From assembly GCF_000420525.1 (NCBI RefSeq), contig NZ_ATVC01000007.1, positions 1 through 56,450 on the forward strand: a DNA stretch of 56,450 bases, written 5' to 3'. Source of the DNA: Aquaspirillum serpens DSM 68 (GTDB taxonomy: Bacteria > Pseudomonadota > Gammaproteobacteria > Burkholderiales > Aquaspirillaceae). Shown piece after piece: positions 16,302 to 26,193 of the stretch (the first letter of the stretch is position 1; every line of letters begins with the position of its first letter). The notes beneath the pieces are model-generated. The model worked only from the letters and a program-made list of their open reading frames with translations. It did no database searches and was not told the DNA's origin. The translations under genes were made by a program, and so were the position numbers.

Positions 16302-16336
16302 GCCCCATTGCCGTATGAGATGGGGCAGTTTTTTAT
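16302..16336. terminator. Terminator between iscX and the island
   Basis: A hairpin pairs GCCCCAT with ATGGGGC (16302-16326), followed by AGTTTTTTATT on the plus strand. It ends the isc operon; the convergent TOPRIM gene stops right at its edge. Confidence 0.75.
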
Positions 16337-17004
16337 TACAGATTTTGAGCAGGAAACACTGCCTTTAACCAATTCACCAAACCGGTATAAAGCGGTGCAG
16401 CAACATCGAGTAGCTTACCCTCTATCGCATAATACAGCCCCTCTCCAGGCTTCTCCTGCCAAGCCAGCCAAGTTGCTACTTCCGCCTTACTTAACCGCAC
16501 AGTTTTAAACTTTGGAGCAGTGAGCGAAGCTACCGTATTTTTAGCCTCAATCAAAAGTGGCTGTTCAGTTAAAGATACGGTTTGTTTAATCCAATCTTCT
16601 AACATACCCTCTGCTGCATTATCTGGCATCACCCATACACCAAAATCGGGTAAACCATCATTGTGTTGGTAGAGCAACCCACCTGTGGCTAAAACCTGAG
16701 GTGATCTGTCATATCCTAAAGAAGCCACTTTTTGGGTAATCTGCTTGATTGTGTTAGAAAATCCACCGCCATCAGAGATTCGATCTGCGTCAACCACAAT
16801 AGCCAATGCTTGCAATCGACCATCGTTTAAGTCATTGATGAGCGTTTCTAGCATATTGAGTATGCCTTGCTTGGTATTTTTACGCCCACCCACTTCAACA
16901 GGTGGCGCCACTCGAACGCCAGCAAGAATAGTATTTGATCGACATAACATTTCAAAAAAAGCCCGATCCGCTTCACCTTCAACCAACAACAAACGGTCAA
17001 CCAT
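16336..17004 (-). CDS. TOPRIM-type protein, DUF3226-like; candidate nuclease of a two-gene defence module
   Basis: 222 residues. The N-terminus 'DRLLLVEGEADRAFFEML' carries a TOPRIM-style Glu (Glu9), and 'LAIVVDADRISDGGG' resembles the DxD metal motif. 'VWVMPDNAAEGMLEDW' follows. This pattern fits DUF3226, a TOPRIM-related family, as I remember it. TOPRIM domains in OLD nucleases, Gabija GajA and PARIS AriB cut or sense nucleic acid. The start ATG overlaps the upstream ATPase stop (TAATG), so the two proteins are almost certainly made together. Nuclease activity is inferred, not shown. Last gene of the island. Confidence 0.75.
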   Translation of the reverse strand: MVDRLLLVEGEADRAFFEMLCRSNTILAGVRVAPPVEVGGRKNTKQGILNMLETLINDLNDGRLQALAIVVDADRISDGGGFSNTIKQITQKVASLGYDRSPQVLATGGLLYQHNDGLPDFGVWVMPDNAAEGMLEDWIKQTVSLTEQPLLIEAKNTVASLTAPKFKTVRLSKAEVATWLAWQEKPGEGLYYAIEGKLLDVAAPLYTGLVNWLKAVFPAQNL

Positions 17005-18164
17005 TAGCGCACCTCAACATCGGCTTGGGTAATGTTGAATAATTTTTGCTCATCAAACACCGTCGCAATCACCCGACCTTGATCGCTAGTTCTTACACTA
17101 CGGCCAACACGGAATAACACACCTTCTATTGCCGTTTTTTCAATTGCAACTTTTGCAAAACTCTCAATGCAATCCCAGCTATGTGTTGTTGCAAATACCT
17201 GAATATTTAATTTTTCCGCTAAATCAAATACCAATTCCCATACTTTTTTCTGCACACTGTAATGCAGCCCATTTTCAAATTCATCAATCAGCAAAAACCC
17301 GCCTTTTGCAGAAAATATTTTGAGTATCAATTGTAAAATACGCAGCATACCATCACCCATGCTATTCAACGGCACAGGCTGATCTTGCCCTGCAAGGCGA
17401 ACTTTTGCAGTTCGGCTTAAGGATTGATTAGAAAACGATTTCTTCTGTTGTTCAGTACGAACAAAGGTAATGTCTAAAAAGTCAGGCGCAATAAGTTTTA
17501 ATGCTGATTTAACAGTATCTTGATGGTTGGTCAGTGCAATTTTATCCCACTCATCGGCTAATTCATCTAACGAAACAAATTGAGTTGGAATGACGTTACA
17601 AGGCAATATATTCAACCCTGAAAGGGGAGGGTAGGCTCTTGTCCGGATTGCATTGATTTTATCAAAACGAATACTAGCATGGTGTCCGTTTTTATGAATA
17701 AAAAGTGCATCCAGTAGTTCGCCCTCTAAATCATCTAGCTGATCTTTTGCAATACGTTTAAGGCGATTTTTAGTAATTTCCTCACCATTCTCATGAATGA
17801 TTTCCGACCATTCTAGTAGATATCCATGCTCAATCGTGAGTCGATTAGCTCCCTCGATTTCACCAATTACAATTTTTGCATCATTATCGGGAAACTTTCT
17901 GCCAGTAAAAAAAGCTTGAAAGGGTATTTCATTATCAAATAGCTCATTGATATTATCAGAGATATAGACACGTTCATCATGACTGGATGCAAGCATTTCA
18001 AGCAAACGTAAATTAGCGTTTCCGGCATAAATACGTATTGCCTCTAGTACCGTTGTTTTGCCAGAGTTATTTTTTCCGACAATTAGATTAACACGGCCTA
18101 GTCTATTAACTTGAAAATCCTCAAGAATACGAAAGTTTTTTATATCAAGTGACTTTAATTGCAT
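17004..18164 (-). CDS. SMC/OLD-like AAA ATPase partner of the TOPRIM protein
   Basis: About 386 residues, an ABC/SMC-style ATPase of the AAA_15/AAA_21 kind. It begins with 'LKSLDIKNFRILED' and Walker A 'VGKNNSGKTT' (29-38). A middle insert of about 200 residues is followed by a signature-like 'NSMGDGMLRILQ', Walker B 'FLLIDEFENGLH' and an H-loop 'FATTHSW'. I start at ATG 18164, six bases after AGGAG; the ATG at 18170 touches that site. The gene is visibly A+T-richer than the isc operon. ATPase plus separate TOPRIM protein is the layout of class 4 OLD (PARIS) systems, but the partner family differs. A 73-base gap with no terminator separates it from the VWA gene upstream. Confidence 0.85.
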   Translation of the reverse strand: MQLKSLDIKNFRILEDFQVNRLGRVNLIVGKNNSGKTTVLEAIRIYAGNANLRLLEMLASSHDERVYISDNINELFDNEIPFQAFFTGRKFPDNDAKIVIGEIEGANRLTIEHGYLLEWSEIIHENGEEITKNRLKRIAKDQLDDLEGELLDALFIHKNGHHASIRFDKINAIRTRAYPPLSGLNILPCNVIPTQFVSLDELADEWDKIALTNHQDTVKSALKLIAPDFLDITFVRTEQQKKSFSNQSLSRTAKVRLAGQDQPVPLNSMGDGMLRILQLILKIFSAKGGFLLIDEFENGLHYSVQKKVWELVFDLAEKLNIQVFATTHSWDCIESFAKVAIEKTAIEGVLFRVGRSVRTSDQGRVIATVFDEQKLFNITQADVEVR

Positions 18165-18237
18165 TTTCATCTCCTAAGAGAAAGCAGAATCATCATAGGA
18201 ATTTAATATTATGAATATCCGTCTGGGGCAGTTTGAC

Positions 18238-19908
18238 TTATAGCACGACCACTTCATCACTGAATGGATCATCAACCCGAGAGCCTGCACACAACACCGA
18301 ATACACCATACAATTCAGCGTGTTTTTTTGTGTTTCGATTGTGTGGAGAAAGGCTGTCGATACGGCGCAATCGCCATCGGAGATCATCAGCACATCGGCT
18401 TTTTTGAAGTTCTCGTGCCGTTTAATCAGTTCAAAAGCACGTTGCAATGGCGTTTCAAAGTCTGTTCCACCACCAAACCCTGTCCCCAAAAACTGCAACA
18501 AACCAGCAAGATCGGCTTTGCCATCCATCGCAAATTCGCGGATTTCTCCACTCGAACCAAACAACAGCACATGCAAAGCGCGGTCTTCACGTTTTAAAAT
18601 CAGCGATATCGCCAGCAACAACGCTTTTGCCCGCAGCAATGGCAAACCGGCCATGCTGCCCGAGGTATCCAAACACGCGACAATCGGCCCTGTTCGTTTT
18701 TTGCGTGTTTCTGTGGTTTCGCCCACACCTAAAGTGATGCCGCTTAATTCGTAGGTCAGCAGGTTTTTCTCGAGCAAGCGCGCAAAAAACAAGGTTTCGA
18801 GGGTGTCATCTTCCAGATTCGACAACTCACTCGGCAACATCCGCATCACATCATCGCTACGGTGAACGCCATGCACTTCGCTTTTGCTGGCTTCAGGAAT
18901 ACGCGACCGTTTGCGGTGTTCTTCGCTCAGATAATGGCGGCCCATTTTGCGAACAAGATCACGAATTTGGGCGTTTTCTTGTAGTTGCTTTGCCAATGCT
19001 TGGAAATCTTCCTGACAGGCTTTTAATTCGCCATACGACAAATCCGCACCAGTGGCACGCAAAAAACCTTCTGCATGATCGTAAGCAGTGCTGATTTCTT
19101 GCAACCACTGGCCGAAACCATCAAGTTTTTTCAACACATCAGCAGGAAGATTTTCGTCAGCGATTTCGCGCTGATAGTCTTGCAACGTGCCCAGTTCATC
19201 GCGAATGCGCGCTATATTGCTGGCGCTCAGCGGCAGGTTTTTAAAAAATTCGTGATGGGCTTGCCAATCTAATTCAGTTGGTTGGCTGGCCGGCGAGGAC
19301 GGGCGGCGAGGCGTGTTGTGTTCGCCGCTGTCGTCGTCCTCGTCATCACCGAAATCATTTTCCCAATCCCACAACCGCCACTTTGTCGCCCCCAAGCGGC
19401 TTTCGGCAGTGCGCTTTAGCTCGCGGATAGTGGGTTCCCATGTGCTATCAATCCAGTTCAATGGGTTCAACCGATCCCACAAAGAAGGCGCACCGCTTTC
19501 AAGCGTTTTCACACATTTGCTAGAGAATTGATGACAGTTTTTAATCACCAAGCCATAAAACGACCGTTCACCGACATCGAATAATGAACGCTCCGCCACC
19601 GCATCATGCCCCACTGCGCCGTGGCGATCACAAGAAACATAGATTTTGCTACCCAATAGGCTTTTTGAAGTGAAGCTATCGGGACTGCTAAGCTGCACTT
19701 CACTTTCAGCAATCCCATCGACCACGATATTAGAGATTTGCCGGCGGCCGACATAAATCCCAGAATGCTCCACCGCCACCCATAAATCACAATACAACAC
19801 ACTCCCCGGCACAGGGCGCACTTTGCTGCGGAAAGTGTTGTCGATGAAATATTTAATGGGTTTTATCCCAAATTTTAGCGCAGCGAATGCAGCAGAAAAT
19901 ATCGTCAT
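18238..19908 (-). CDS. ViaA-like VWA protein with N-terminal LRAT/NlpC-P60-like domain
   Basis: 556 residues. Residues about 30-135 look like an LRAT-type papain-like domain: 'PVPGSVLYCDLWVAVEHSGIYVG' region with His48, and 'VIKNCHQFSS' with Cys125 (compare NCEHF of LRAT). Such domains are thiol hydrolases or acyltransferases acting on lipids or peptides. A low-complexity acidic linker (186-212) follows. Residues 212-556 resemble ViaA: helical region 'DWQAHHEFFKNLPLSAS', then a VWA domain with an intact MIDAS site 'DTSGSM' (414-419), 'GGTDF' and 'ISDGD'. It begins 4 bases after the MoxR ATPase gene. ViaA partners RavA; an LRAT head on it is not something I know from characterised systems. Confidence 0.85.
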   Translation of the reverse strand: MTIFSAAFAALKFGIKPIKYFIDNTFRSKVRPVPGSVLYCDLWVAVEHSGIYVGRRQISNIVVDGIAESEVQLSSPDSFTSKSLLGSKIYVSCDRHGAVGHDAVAERSLFDVGERSFYGLVIKNCHQFSSKCVKTLESGAPSLWDRLNPLNWIDSTWEPTIRELKRTAESRLGATKWRLWDWENDFGDDEDDDSGEHNTPRRPSSPASQPTELDWQAHHEFFKNLPLSASNIARIRDELGTLQDYQREIADENLPADVLKKLDGFGQWLQEISTAYDHAEGFLRATGADLSYGELKACQEDFQALAKQLQENAQIRDLVRKMGRHYLSEEHRKRSRIPEASKSEVHGVHRSDDVMRMLPSELSNLEDDTLETLFFARLLEKNLLTYELSGITLGVGETTETRKKRTGPIVACLDTSGSMAGLPLLRAKALLLAISLILKREDRALHVLLFGSSGEIREFAMDGKADLAGLLQFLGTGFGGGTDFETPLQRAFELIKRHENFKKADVLMISDGDCAVSTAFLHTIETQKNTLNCMVYSVLCAGSRVDDPFSDEVVVL

Positions 19909-19912
19909 GGTG

Positions 19913-22003
19913 TTAAATCCACAGATTGTCTTTCAACTGCAAAGCCAGCAAATCCACCATTTTTTCACCGACTTGGCGTAAAGTTGGAACATTATTTTGA
20001 TGATCCCATCGCCAAACCTGCTCGAAATCCCAACCGAGGGTCAATTCAAAATAACGCTGTGTAAATAGTGCAGCAGCAACGGTTTTACCTTCCTGACCAT
20101 TACCATCATCACCTGTTTGGTTTGAATGACTTTCAATCGAAATATTATGTTCTAAACGGCCACCATTTTTATTTTCTGCAACAATACGGTAATAGCTCAC
20201 CTCAGCCAAAGGGCCAATCGCACAATGACGCACCACACTGTTCCTACAATAATATGCAATCCCGCAACTCAAACTACCGCTTCCAGATACAATACAACGC
20301 TCTACTACAGTTCCACTTTCGAGTGAATGGGCAATGCCACAATATGGTGATCCGTGAACCTTCACTTCACAATCAAGAATCTGGCAATTATTGTATATAA
20401 TGCTATCAAGAAAACAGATATCAGTATCAATATCAGTTAGTGGCCCTCCTGTCGTACGACAACGCGCAATCTGGCTATTTTTTGCTAACCCTACAAAAGA
20501 CCACGCTTCACAATCAAGCAAGGTGCAACCAGTGATGCTGTATCCAATCAATCTCTTTTCTGCTTGACATGCCAGAATGGTTGTTTTTTCTGCATTTAGA
20601 GCAATCGCACTTTCACCAAGCCGGATGTTTTGTAGCTGTGAATTGCGCACGGTATTAAATAGCGGCCTTACGCTGTATTCGCGATCAAGACGAAAACCGT
20701 CCCCCTCGTAATGTCCCTGAAAATCAAATATTGGCCAATCACTAATGGCTGAAAAATCTAGGTCGGCTGTTTGGCGGAAGTGATAGCCTTTTTGTCCGAC
20801 ATCCGCACGCGCCAAATCCATAAAATCTTCCACCGAGCGAATTAACAGCGGATCGTCAGCCGTGCCACTGCCGACAAAACCTTTCACCACTGCGCTAATT
20901 GCAGCACGGTTCGGCTTTTTGCCGATTTCGCTACTTTTTTGAAACGCAGCAACCACCGTTTCACCATCGCTATCCACTTCATAAACCGGAATATTTTTCT
21001 CTTTGTCCATCGGCACCAAACGGCTTAGGCCTTTCAAAGTCGATGTAATGATCTCTCGGACTTTGGGTGCATTATCGGGGTGGTTCCACAAACAATCTTT
21101 CAACAACAACACATCAGACAAATCTACCTCGCGCCGACCATTGCTGGCCGCAGAAACCCGTAGCAATTTAATAATTTTTTTCAAGCGGCGATCAGATAAA
21201 CTCTCACGCGCATCTTCTTGAAAGGCTTGTTTATGTTGTTGCCAAATACTTTGGATGCCTTGAACAATATCATTTGGAATCGTGACAGTTTTCGCAGCTT
21301 GACGTAAGCGCGCTATTTCATGCCGTGTTAAACGATCTTCCGGCGCAAACTCCGGTTCTGTCGTTGTATTGAATAACAATTCAAAACGATCTTCACTGAC
21401 ATAATCCACAAAAATACGCACCAAAAACCGATCATATAAAGCACCTAAAGCCTCATCATCGGTGGGTAATTCATTCGAAGCAGCAATTAACGCCTGTAAA
21501 GGAACAGCTTGGGCTTGAGCGCCATTGTGATACATGCGCTCGTTAAGAATCGTCAATAACGCATTGAGAATAGAAGAACTGGCTTTGAAAATTTCATCTA
21601 AAAAAGCCACATTGACAGTGGGTAAATAGCCCTGAGTATTGCGCTTAAAACGGTCGGCTTTTAATTCGGTAATAGAAAGTGGGCCGAATAATTCTTCTGG
21701 TGTCGAAAATTTGGTGAGCAGATATTCAAAATAATCATGCCCATCTTGATCATCACTTAAGACTTGTGCAATCCGCCGAGCTACCAAACTTTTTCCTGTG
21801 CCTGGAGGCCCAACCAAAACCAAATTTTCCTCGGCTAATACGGTTAACAATGCGGCTTTTAATACCCCCTCACGCTCAACCAAACCCTGATTTAACAAAG
21901 CCAACAGGCGTTGTAGTTTGGTTTTAAAACTGGCGGCTTCGGGCGAAAGCGAAGAGAGAGGGGCGGCAGCGGTCTGTGGACGCGGTTGTAGAACTTGGCT
22001 CAT
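19913..22003 (-). CDS. RavA-like MoxR AAA+ ATPase with C-terminal GLUG-like beta-helix
   Basis: 696 residues. Residues 20-330 are a MoxR-family AAA+ module: Walker A 'GPPGTGKS' (65-72), Walker B 'VAFLDEI' (132-138), sensor-1 Asn177 and Arg finger in 'YDRF' (190-193), closest to RavA. From about 375 the protein changes: 'GSGTADDPLLIRSVEDF', 'YHFRQTADLDFS', 'GHYEGDGFRLD', then about five 20-25-residue rungs with Cys at the turn ('VVERCIVSG', 'VVRHCAIG'), ending 'WRWDHQNNVPTLR'. This is the pattern of GLUG/right-handed beta-helix domains normally found in surface proteins, yet there is no signal peptide. The beta-helix replaces the RavA C-terminal region and is A+T-richer than the ATPase part. 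It probably drives the LRAT-VWA protein. Confidence 0.88.
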   Translation of the reverse strand: MSQVLQPRPQTAAAPLSSLSPEAASFKTKLQRLLALLNQGLVEREGVLKAALLTVLAEENLVLVGPPGTGKSLVARRIAQVLSDDQDGHDYFEYLLTKFSTPEELFGPLSITELKADRFKRNTQGYLPTVNVAFLDEIFKASSSILNALLTILNERMYHNGAQAQAVPLQALIAASNELPTDDEALGALYDRFLVRIFVDYVSEDRFELLFNTTTEPEFAPEDRLTRHEIARLRQAAKTVTIPNDIVQGIQSIWQQHKQAFQEDARESLSDRRLKKIIKLLRVSAASNGRREVDLSDVLLLKDCLWNHPDNAPKVREIITSTLKGLSRLVPMDKEKNIPVYEVDSDGETVVAAFQKSSEIGKKPNRAAISAVVKGFVGSGTADDPLLIRSVEDFMDLARADVGQKGYHFRQTADLDFSAISDWPIFDFQGHYEGDGFRLDREYSVRPLFNTVRNSQLQNIRLGESAIALNAEKTTILACQAEKRLIGYSITGCTLLDCEAWSFVGLAKNSQIARCRTTGGPLTDIDTDICFLDSIIYNNCQILDCEVKVHGSPYCGIAHSLESGTVVERCIVSGSGSLSCGIAYYCRNSVVRHCAIGPLAEVSYYRIVAENKNGGRLEHNISIESHSNQTGDDGNGQEGKTVAAALFTQRYFELTLGWDFEQVWRWDHQNNVPTLRQVGEKMVDLLALQLKDNLWI

Positions 22004-25512: not shown

Positions 25513-25588
25513 GGCCAATTAGCTCAGTTGGTAGAGCAGCGGATTGAAAATCCGCGTGTCCGTGGTTCGATTCCGCGATTGGCCACCA
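25513..25588 (+). tRNA. tRNA-Phe (GAA)
   Basis: The acceptor stem pairs GGCCAAT with ATTGGCC, then discriminator A and encoded CCA. The anticodon loop TTGAAAA gives GAA. The length is 76 bases. A truncated integrase gene lies downstream, so this tRNA was probably an integration site. Confidence 0.97.
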
Positions 25589-25623
25589 CAGAATTAAAAA
25601 GCAGTGCCTAGCATTGCCAAATA

Positions 25624-25660
25624 AACCCAGTAAGAGCCTTGTGCCTACTGGGTTTTTTGC
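25624..25660 (+). terminator. Intrinsic terminator after tRNA-Phe
   Basis: A hairpin pairs ACCCAGTA (25625-25632) with TACTGGGT (25646-25653), followed by TTTTTGC. Confidence 0.85.
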
Positions 25661-25701
25661 TATTCGTGGGCAATCCTTGGCAACAGGGGTAGCAGTAAAA
25701 T

Positions 25702-25753
25702 TTGTGTATAACTTTGTGTATAACTAGAATCGCATGGCAACCGTTATACACAA
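25702..25753. repeat. Triple repeat TTGTGTATAAC ahead of the integrase relic
   Basis: The 11-mer TTGTGTATAAC occurs twice in tandem (25702-25712 and 25714-25724) and once inverted (25743-25753), ending nine bases before the integrase start. Arm-type integrase sites or an autoregulatory operator are likely readings. Confidence 0.6.
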
Positions 25754-25761
25754 GGCCTGCC

Positions 25762-26112
25762 ATGAAGCTAACTGACCCCGTTATCAAGGCAACCAAGCCA
25801 CAAGAAAAACCCTTTACCTTGTCCGATGGTGAAGGCCTTGCATTGCACATCCAGCCCAACGGTTCAAAGTGGTGGCGTTTTCGCTATCGGTTTGACGGTA
25901 AACCCTGTTTGCTGTCTCTTGGCACCTATCCCAGTACTACCCTTAAAGCAGCCAGATTAGAGCGTGACCGCCTGAAAGGGCTAATCAAGCAAGGCATTAA
26001 CCCTTCTGTCCAACGCCAAGAAGATAAATTCATGGCCGCCAAGAGTTCAGCTAATAGCTTTGAATCGGTGGCCCGTGCTTGGTTTGACGGCTGGCAAGGC
26101 CACCAGGTTACA
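25762..26112 (+). pseudogene. Truncated tyrosine integrase (N-terminal arm-binding domain only)
   Basis: The start MKLTDPVIKATKPQEKPF and the following 'LSDGEGLALHIQPNGSKWWRFRYRF' region are the DUF4102 arm-binding domain of P4-type integrases that use tRNA genes. About 117 residues are recognisable, up to 'SFESVARAWFDGWQGHQ', where the core-binding domain should begin. The frame then runs into a strong terminator hairpin and stops at 26184, so the catalytic domain (R-H-R-Y) is gone. It lies 173 bases past tRNA-Phe. A deletion of the former island that brought in a foreign 3' end is the simplest explanation. Confidence 0.85.
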
Positions 26113-26150
26113 ACGCCCGACTTTTTACTAAGTCGGGCGTTTTTCTTTTT
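26112..26150 (+). terminator. Strong intrinsic terminator at the integrase breakpoint
   Basis: A hairpin pairs AACGCCCGACTT with AAGTCGGGCGTT, followed by TTTCTTTTT. It lies inside the out-of-place 3' part of the integrase frame and must have come from another gene. Confidence 0.85.
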
Positions 26151-26151
26151 C

Positions 26152-26177
26152 AGAGCGTTAAATCGCTCTCTTTTCTT
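26152..26177 (+). terminator. Second small hairpin with T-rich tail
   Basis: GAGCG-TTAAAT-CGCTC is followed by TCTTTTCTTTG, two bases after the first terminator's tail. Likely a back-up terminator. Confidence 0.5.
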
Positions 26178-26193
26178 TGTTTAAGATTGTCTT

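Follow-up and report, generated by a model that had tools for sequence, protein, structure and literature searches.

Gene pair and its chassis

The window analysed here, a 56,450-nucleotide stretch of Aquaspirillum serpens DSM 68 (contig NZ_ATVC01000007.1), carries two open reading frames on the minus strand that lie 4 bp apart and encode a MoxR ATPase (19913-22003) and a VWA protein (18238-19908). The genes and their core domains are:

19913..22003, minus strand: first of the two genes, encoding a 696-aa MoxR AAA+ ATPase of the RavA subfamily that ends in a beta-helix
21035..21928, minus strand: AAA+ module and lid, residues 26-323, RavA homologue (profile-profile comparison, PDB RavA match)
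21788-21811, minus strand: Walker A GPPGTGKS, MoxR residues 65-72 (sequence)
18238..19908, minus strand: LRAT-VWA protein, second gene of the pair (556 aa)
18709..19266, minus strand: helical region of the VWA protein, residues 215-400 (ViaA match from residue 291, ahead of the VWA domain)
18241..18696, minus strand: VWA domain with intact MIDAS, residues 405-556 (Pfam, alignment, VIA)

The reading frames, Walker A motif and four-base gap given in the initial annotation held when the coordinates were re-checked, and so did its proposals of RavA/ViaA kinship and an intact MIDAS. The ATPase has an AAA+ module, lid and Walker motifs of the RavA type, and it matches Pfam bpMoxR (9e-59) and AAA_lid_8 (5e-20), NCBIfam RavA (PRK13531, 6.5e-75, restricted to residues 28-315), ordinary RavA by hhalign (probability 100, E 8e-85, with homology ending at residue 323), and RavA in the PDB (E 1.5e-83). 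Its partner matches VWA_2 (7e-9) and, over residues 291-511, NCBIfam ViaA (PRK10997, 9.1e-40); its VWA domain resembles that of Rpn10 (VIA Z 15.9), and the MIDAS residues D414-x-S416-x-S418, T482, and D511 are invariant across 16 sequences. Both proteins fall far under the NCBIfam equivalog cut-offs, scoring 253 bits against 681 for RavA, a cut-off for the whole protein including the LARA arm, and 137 bits against 500 for whole-length ViaA. The pair is a MoxR-VWA system on the RavA-ViaA chassis, in which the ATPase belongs to the RavA subfamily and the partner is ViaA-like. It shares with RavA-ViaA, whose proteins bind anionic phospholipids (PMC9489729), the AAA+ core, the helical-VWA half of ViaA, the gene order, and intact Walker and MIDAS motifs, but it has a beta-helix in place of the LARA arm and an LRAT domain N-terminal to the ViaA part.

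A putative LRAT-family thiol enzyme at the head of the VWA protein

The following features lie N-terminal to the ViaA-type helical-VWA part:

19360..19869, minus strand: LRAT-family (permuted NlpC/P60) head, residues 14-183 (profile, hhalign, alignment)
19765-19767, minus strand: LRAT head H48
19729-19731, minus strand: LRAT head N60
19555-19557, minus strand: LRAT head Y118
19534-19536, minus strand: LRAT head C125
19513-19515, minus strand: LRAT head C132
19831..19902, minus strand: amphipathic N-terminal helix, residues 3-26 of the VWA protein, possibly in contact with the membrane surface (hydrophobic moment)

Profiles and alignments identify this region as an LRAT-family domain, a putative thiol enzyme with its catalytic residues complete. 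Alone, the window protein matches Pfam LRAT (PF04970) at a sub-threshold E of 0.026; a profile from the 16 pair sequences matches free-standing LRAT proteins (E 8.5e-13 to 1e-25) that clear the PF04970 cut-off by themselves, and profile-profile comparison of the head with LRAT gives a probability of 99.3 and an E of 1.3e-20 (hhalign). H48, N60, Y118, C125, and C132 are invariant in 16/16 pair sequences, and His48 and Cys125 are also invariant in all 13 free-standing relatives, which agrees with the LRAT/NlpC-P60-like domain centred on these two residues that had been proposed from the sequence. The catalytic His, Tyr, and Cys occur in permuted order with a polar third residue, Asn60 in the pair and Glu or His in the free-standing relatives. 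The permuted His...Cys order, conserved Tyr, NCxxF motif, and Cys+7 (here C125/C132, a feature also of LRAT; PMC3142127) are shared with the permuted NlpC/P60 lipid enzymes LRAT, HRASLS, and Tox-Act1 (PMC3142127, PMC12994826), from which the head differs in its fusion to a VWA co-chaperone and in Asn60. AlphaFold modelled the LRAT core with poor confidence over residues 81-160 because the alignment of 16 sequences was shallow, and the VIA list for this model consists of VWA domains. The N-terminal helix has a hydrophobic moment of 0.42-0.66 (16 sequences) and a hydrophobicity below transmembrane grade.

Among permuted NlpC/P60 proteins, one bacterial toxin acts as a phospholipase on PG and PE (PMC12994826). 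The head could instead be a peptidase or amidase that, on activation, cuts either a protein of an invader or the MoxR partner itself, the latter for example at the NIWL tail that is invariant at the MoxR C-terminus. The superfamily includes peptidases, and the terminal MoxR motif DLLxQQIxxNIWL is strikingly conserved, but characterised permuted members act mostly on lipids (PMC12994826) and the head is nearer to LRAT than to PPPDE in sequence, and we regard such an activity as very improbable.

A beta-helix in place of the RavA arm

The tail of the MoxR protein has three parts:

20684..20887, minus strand: cap at the N-terminal end of the beta-helix (residues 373-440), conserved as GSGTxxDPLLI...DVGQKGYxFxQTADID...W...F.G.YDG (alignment, AlphaFold model)
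20144..20683, minus strand: rungs of the beta-helix (residues 441-620), hypervariable; a regular rung spans about 19 aa, with Cys at its position 9 (AlphaFold model, alignments)
19916..20086, minus strand: cap at the C-terminal end together with the terminal motif (residues 640-696), conserved as QRYFExTLGWDFxxVWxWD...P.L ... DLLxxQIxxNIWL (alignment)

The RavA homology of the MoxR protein stops where the LARA arm starts, and after residue 323 the arm is replaced by a beta-helix. From about residue 373, the AlphaFold model is a right-handed beta-helix, with pLDDT mostly 70-95 over residues 371-520 and 531-620 and about 44 at 521-530, and the tail aligns with IgA1 protease (VIA Z 19.7, rmsd 3.1, 237 aligned). 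The beta-helix of the initial annotation was thereby recovered and its 'GLUG' label was not: GLUG (PF07581) did not appear among the Pfam matches listed, up to E 1 for the MoxR of the window and up to E 0.01 for three relatives. The Pfam Beta_helix family (PF13229) matches only at E 0.02. The layout is best explained by the variable beta-helix sitting at the position of LARA (for LARA function in RavA, see PMC6987120). By eye, the HLW[IL] of the RavA post-LARA helix resembles the NIWL at the MoxR terminus; hhalign gave no significant second match between that helix and the terminal motif.

Hypervariability of the rungs

Between orthologous loci, the LRAT domain, AAA+ module, and flanking caps are 93-99% identical, whereas identity in the rungs is about 40-60% and indels are numerous. 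In loci L019 and L022, identity is 98% for LRAT, 97% for AAA, and 93% and 99% for the caps, against 48% with 44 gap columns for the rungs; L019 and L020 share 99% of the AAA and 40% of the rungs, and L015/L017, L016/L018, and L020/L021 show the same contrast. In ordinary RavA pairs, the tail tracks its own AAA domain (76% vs 70%, 82% vs 71%). All 49 rungs are distinct and retain their scaffold positions. Rung dN/dS is about 0.25-0.5, above the flanks in computable pairs yet never above 1, and positive selection is therefore unsupported.

The variability could reflect relaxed slippage of the repeats without any part in recognition, the caps holding the fold while the solenoid drifts in length and surface. 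The 57-bp tandem units in L016 and a dN/dS below 1 are what such drift would give, but the divergence is uncoupled from the flanks at the DNA level in several independent pairs, the scaffold residues of the rungs and both caps remain under constraint, and L018, L022, and the window have no DNA-level tandem repeats, which makes this explanation improbable. The host genome gave no match to reverse transcriptase (RVT_1) in a search with positive controls, ruling out a diversity-generating retroelement (DGR) as the source of diversity, and a search of the same genome for a second beta-helix store that could act as gene conversion donor found only one copy.

The hypervariable rungs, which are new here, look like a diversifying sensor, and they lend real support to the sensor role suggested earlier for the beta-helix. 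MoxR/vWA systems with DGR-diversified sensors have been proposed as antigen sensors (PMC10907252) and likewise combine a hypervariable ligand-binding domain with a MoxR/vWA setting, but here the variable beta-helix is fused to the ATPase and variation appears to arise by rung turnover or exchange.

Distribution and neighbourhood

A search for co-occurring homologues, as had been suggested, found the two-gene unit with both unusual ends in 15 further loci, in freshwater Methylococcales, Burkholderiales, and Marinospirillum. The MoxR gene is upstream of the VWA gene in all 15, three of them with small insertions between the genes, and ordinary RavA/ViaA pairs found in parallel have neither LRAT head nor beta-helix. 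The pair, apparently single copy, occurs in 8 of 201 genomes of one family and in 0/5 others in the window's family, and the tree rejects monophyly of Burkholderiales (p-AU 0.006). By these patterns, the pair is rare, accessory, and horizontally moving rather than a widespread core-genome RavA-ViaA locus of the same domain composition. Phage and plasmid collections gave only matches to the ViaA/VWA half, none covering 80% of the query, and neither the fused form there nor the pair in viral contigs was found; a phage, plasmid, or viral origin was rejected on these searches. In the relatives examined, hscA-fdx and lrgAB lie apart, and there is therefore no clean empty site. Scans for promoters and terminators gave no more than expected by chance.

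Two genes neighbouring the pair have PADLOC matches:

17004..18170, minus strand: AAA_15/OLD-like ATPase, PDC-M38A, outside the pair (PADLOC 9e-157)
16336..17004, minus strand: DUF3226 protein, PDC-M38B, outside the pair (Pfam 5e-48, PADLOC 1.4e-83), with a weak OLD-like TOPRIM match

A four-gene system was rejected, as these two genes are missing from 17/17 related loci; by this comparison, AAA_15 and DUF3226 (PDC-M38) evidently form a separate module. Placement in defence islands was not borne out among relatives: 85 neighbour proteins compared with PADLOC gave no consistent signal, the sole scorers being a Dcm-type methyltransferase and a DpdF/RecQ-like helicase signal. Neither pair protein has a meaningful PADLOC match to defence models.

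The pair's neighbours are mostly housekeeping genes, as might be expected of a chaperone for envelope or respiratory stress in the manner of RavA-ViaA. The beta-helix of such a chaperone would dock onto a variable client, surface- or polysaccharide-related, and its LRAT head would trim or remodel lipids in assembly, with no role in conflict. The related RavA and ViaA have respiratory complexes and membrane lipids as their targets, and beta-helices often bind polysaccharides, the best fold matches including lyases and tailspikes. However, a rare, patchy, and horizontally moving pair fits this role poorly, and rungs that are half different in near-identical loci would be needless for a fixed client; we consider it unlikely. 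We think it still less likely that the head adds or removes an acyl group on a specific client recruited by the beta-helix and unfolded by MoxR/VWA. Permuted NlpC/P60 enzymes have been proposed to cut fatty acyl-amino acid linkages (PMC3142127) and VWA MIDAS sites bind extended peptides (PMC7159879), but in none of the 15 loci is a client gene linked to the pair.

Discussion

The MoxR-vWA ternary conflict systems of the VMAP, iSTAND, FtsH, and beta-propeller types (PMC7159879) resemble the pair in coupling adjacent MoxR and vWA genes to an extra enzymatic domain, in their patchiness, and in the bpMoxR match. Unlike them, the pair has no gene conserved beside it across loci as a third component (VMAP, iSTAND, FtsH, or beta-propeller protein), and its Walker A is canonical rather than GXXXTAKS. 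The terms LRAT, lecithin, and acyltransferase are absent from the main text of that study (PMC7159879). We found no description in the literature consulted of LRAT joined with MoxR/vWA in this manner, in keeping with the initial statement that no characterised system has this set of domains.

The reading that we tentatively prefer, at somewhat less than an even chance, is a ligand-gated, membrane-associated thiol acyl-hydrolase or transferase, in which the beta-helix recognises a ligand and the AAA+/VWA machinery controls the LRAT head, plausibly in conflict. A hexameric ATPase would present beta-helices, in place of LARA, at the tips of its arms, where they would recognise a changing ligand. 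ATP-driven remodelling would be relayed to the VWA partner, and the LRAT head, freed or repositioned at the inner membrane, would hydrolyse or transfer acyl chains, most likely of phospholipid. The likeliest setting would be conflict with phages or other invaders, in which recognition leads to membrane damage or dormancy, because the cassette-like diversity of the recognition surface would be the product of an arms race. Against this reading, the loci show no defence-island context, third component, or separate effector, the neighbours are mostly housekeeping genes, rung dN/dS does not exceed 1, and the fused form is missing from the phage, plasmid, and viral collections searched. A more specific version, possible although on the unlikely side, is a compact receptor of an immune-like kind. 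In it, the LARA arms of an AAA+ ring would have turned into cassette-diversified beta-helix recognition domains that switch on LRAT-VWA as a tethered membrane phospholipase, and rung turnover or recombination, not a reverse transcriptase, would generate the diversity.

MoxR-vWA ternary conflict systems are largely predictions. To our knowledge, an account of sensing and action in MoxR-VWA pairs has long been lacking, and we know of no catalytic output for RavA-ViaA, which touches lipids and respiratory enzymes. The pair joins in one two-gene unit a chassis of known structure with candidates for catalytic output, the LRAT thiol site, and for input, the hypervariable beta-helix, and Cys125 mutants and rung swaps could therefore probe output and sensing separately. 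If the rungs are recognition cassettes, the pair would represent a diversifying sensor on an AAA+ machine without a diversity-generating retroelement.

Two genes related to RavA and ViaA

The paired genes lie four bases apart, and the two reading frames, coordinates, and spacing given in the initial annotation hold on the window DNA:

19913-22003 (-), MoxR ATPase gene, RavA subfamily, 696 aa
18238-19908 (-), VWA protein gene, 556 aa

The RavA/ViaA kinship proposed there is likewise confirmed. The MoxR protein matches Pfam bpMoxR (9e-59), AAA_5 (5e-26), and AAA_lid_8 (5e-20), the NCBIfam RavA model (6.5e-75, restricted to residues 28-315), and RavA in the PDB (1.5e-83); comparison with ordinary RavA places the end of this homology at residue 323. 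The VWA protein matches VWA_2 (7e-9) and, over residues 291-511, ViaA (9e-40), and its MIDAS residues are intact. The cut-offs for RavA or ViaA equivalogs are not reached, which rules out that assignment. No LRAT domain is present in the remaining VWA matches in the class, which are of the standard RavA/ViaA type, and their RavA partners, where readable, lack a beta-helix. The window family therefore forms a separate branch that has had its two ends replaced jointly.

The beta-helix tail and the LRAT head

After residue 323, the MoxR protein runs through a linker, a conserved cap, the rungs, and a conserved C-terminal cap to a strongly conserved terminal motif, DLLxQQIxxNIWL. The beta-helix anticipated for this tail is borne out by the AlphaFold model, which is right-handed (block pLDDT mostly 70-95, dipping at 521-530) and finds its best matches among solved structures in beta-helices (IgA1 protease, Z 19.7, rmsd 3.1, 237 residues). 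The likening of its rungs to GLUG is not supported by Pfam, whose GLUG model matched neither the window protein nor three relatives. Regular rungs span 19 residues; position 9 is always Cys and position 6 usually Ile. No two of the 49 rungs collected are alike, and those of one relative (L016) appear in the DNA as 57-bp tandem units.

Pfam LRAT scores the window VWA protein below threshold (E 0.026). A head profile (residues 14-183, 16 sequences) retrieved the free-standing proteins L033 (8.5e-13) and L100 (1.2e-25) in genome searches, both of which exceed the Pfam LRAT cut-off on their own (2.4e-10 and 2e-9), and profile-profile comparison gave a probability of 99.3 (E 1.3e-20). These profiles and the invariant residues uphold the original reading of an LRAT head with His48 and Cys125. 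The AlphaFold model, built on a shallow alignment, is poor across the catalytic core, so the assignment of the head as an LRAT fold rests on sequence profiles. Every residue of the catalytic set known from permuted NlpC/P60 enzymes (PMC3142127) has an equivalent in the head: H48, N60 (the third polar residue), Y118, and C125. C132 lies seven residues beyond the catalytic Cys, the spacing found in LRAT, and none of these five residues varies among the 16 sequences. The 13 free-standing relatives all keep the H, Y, and C but have E or H at position 60, which is Asn in every fused head (16/16). An amphipathic helix precedes the head in every relative (moment 0.42-0.66) and may contact the membrane.

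The nearest free form of the head module found here is a 156-aa LRAT protein (L100:5959-6429) with the FIDNxFRDKV start and WRxWD end of the fused head. A gammaproteobacterial free-standing LRAT family (L033-L042) has members mostly of about 160-200 aa, many beginning with a hydrophobic stretch, MxLPLLWLGAA, that suggests membrane attachment.

Hypervariability of the rungs

Among orthologous loci, rung divergence is decoupled from that of the rest of the protein pair. Between relatives L019 and L022, identity is 98% in the LRAT head, 97% in the helical region, 97% in AAA+, 93% in the cap, and 99% in the C-terminal cap, but 48% in the rungs, with 44 gap columns; dS is 1.76 in the rungs versus 0.13-0.59 elsewhere. 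Values of dS above 1 within repeats are also overestimated, because non-homologous rungs become aligned with one another. The pairs L020/L021, L015/L017, and L016/L018 behave similarly, and DNA identity falls from >90% to about 45-67% inside the MoxR gene before returning to 97%. In control comparisons of ordinary RavA, tails follow the AAA+ domain (76% vs 70%; 82% vs 71%). Because several independent MAG pairs share the pattern, an assembly artefact is unlikely, though not impossible. L019 shares 99% of its AAA+ module and 40% of its rungs with L020 while its LRAT head is nearest to that of L022, so the genes look mosaic. In the rungs, dN/dS is above that of the flanks but <1; the sequences thus show turnover or exchange of rungs, not positive selection.

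Distribution and genomic neighbourhood

A single search with the VWA protein across 84,980 species genomes gave 17 loci, 15 of them with full-length relatives (55-65% identity across the whole protein, including the head), and in all 15 a MoxR gene lies upstream on the same strand. The hosts are freshwater MAGs of Methylococcales, Burkholderiales (Polaromonas, Rhodoferax, Malikia, Sphaerotilus, Massilia), and Marinospirillum; six labelled just as uncultured proteobacteria belong to the family of the Methylococcales hosts. The distribution is patchy: 8 of 201 genomes within one host's family, none of the five others in the window's own family, and no further full-length match in 369 genomes of the class, with one copy in every genome where the head was detected. 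Monophyly was rejected for the Burkholderiales copies (p-AU 0.006), so the two-gene unit appears to move horizontally; it was not rejected for the Methylococcales copies (p-AU 0.077). Plasmid, phage, and viral collections yielded no fused copies.

Three relatives carry inserts exactly between the two genes:

L015, 4453-4923, IS200-like transposase gene
L017, 7113-7852, Gp49/HTH toxin-antitoxin pair
L024, 4365-4667, MqsA/HTH antitoxin-like gene

In another relative's genome (G805), a break near residues 153-169 interrupts the MoxR frame (L025:772-2882), and a second contig opens with a partial VWA end (L031:1-642), possibly through decay, a second copy, or an assembly fault.

Two further features flank the window pair:

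16336-18170 (-), the pair's strand, AAA_15 ATPase (PADLOC PDC-M38A, 9e-157) and DUF3226 protein (PDC-M38B, 1.4e-83)
25513-26184, tRNA-Phe, then truncated integrase N-terminus (Arm-DNA-bind_3, 3e-25, 160 aa)

The former, a neighbouring candidate defence module (PDC-M38), is separated by 67 bp from the LRAT-VWA gene upstream of it, and its genes are absent at every relative's locus. The latter, about 3.5 kb upstream of the pair, is what remains of an integrated element. Relatives' neighbours are mostly housekeeping genes; among 85 neighbour proteins, PADLOC matched a Dcm-type methyltransferase and a DpdF/RecQ-like helicase signal. Loci L019-L022 share a conserved upstream spermidine-synthase-like membrane protein, and each carries different genes downstream of its VWA gene.

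Relation to known systems and possible function

Ternary MoxR-vWA systems have a third gene, whereas the window pair has none. Some MoxR-vWA conflict systems carry DGR-diversified putative sensors (PMC10907252); the window's host genome gave no reverse transcriptase (RVT_1) match, which rules out a DGR as the source of diversity there. The pair appears to be a previously undescribed form of the MoxR-VWA couple, neither a RavA/ViaA equivalog nor a ternary system. We found no description of it in a literature search that left most subscription journals and supplements outside its reach, and a listing in a supplement is possible.

RavA has LARA at its arm tips for partner binding (PMC6987120), and both it and ViaA bind anionic phospholipids and affect lipid homeostasis (PMC9489729). 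Permuted NlpC/P60 domains work on acyl groups, and one is a PG/PE phospholipase toxin with essential His and Cys (PMC12994826). In the window pair, the beta-helix may replace LARA as the recognition tip and the AAA+/VWA couple may gate the LRAT head, which upon ligand binding would attack membrane lipids. A role as a stress chaperone is a serious rival to this proposal. MoxR-vWA couples have been proposed as switches of conflict systems (PMC7159879), and the diversity of the rungs makes biological conflict the likeliest setting for the pair.
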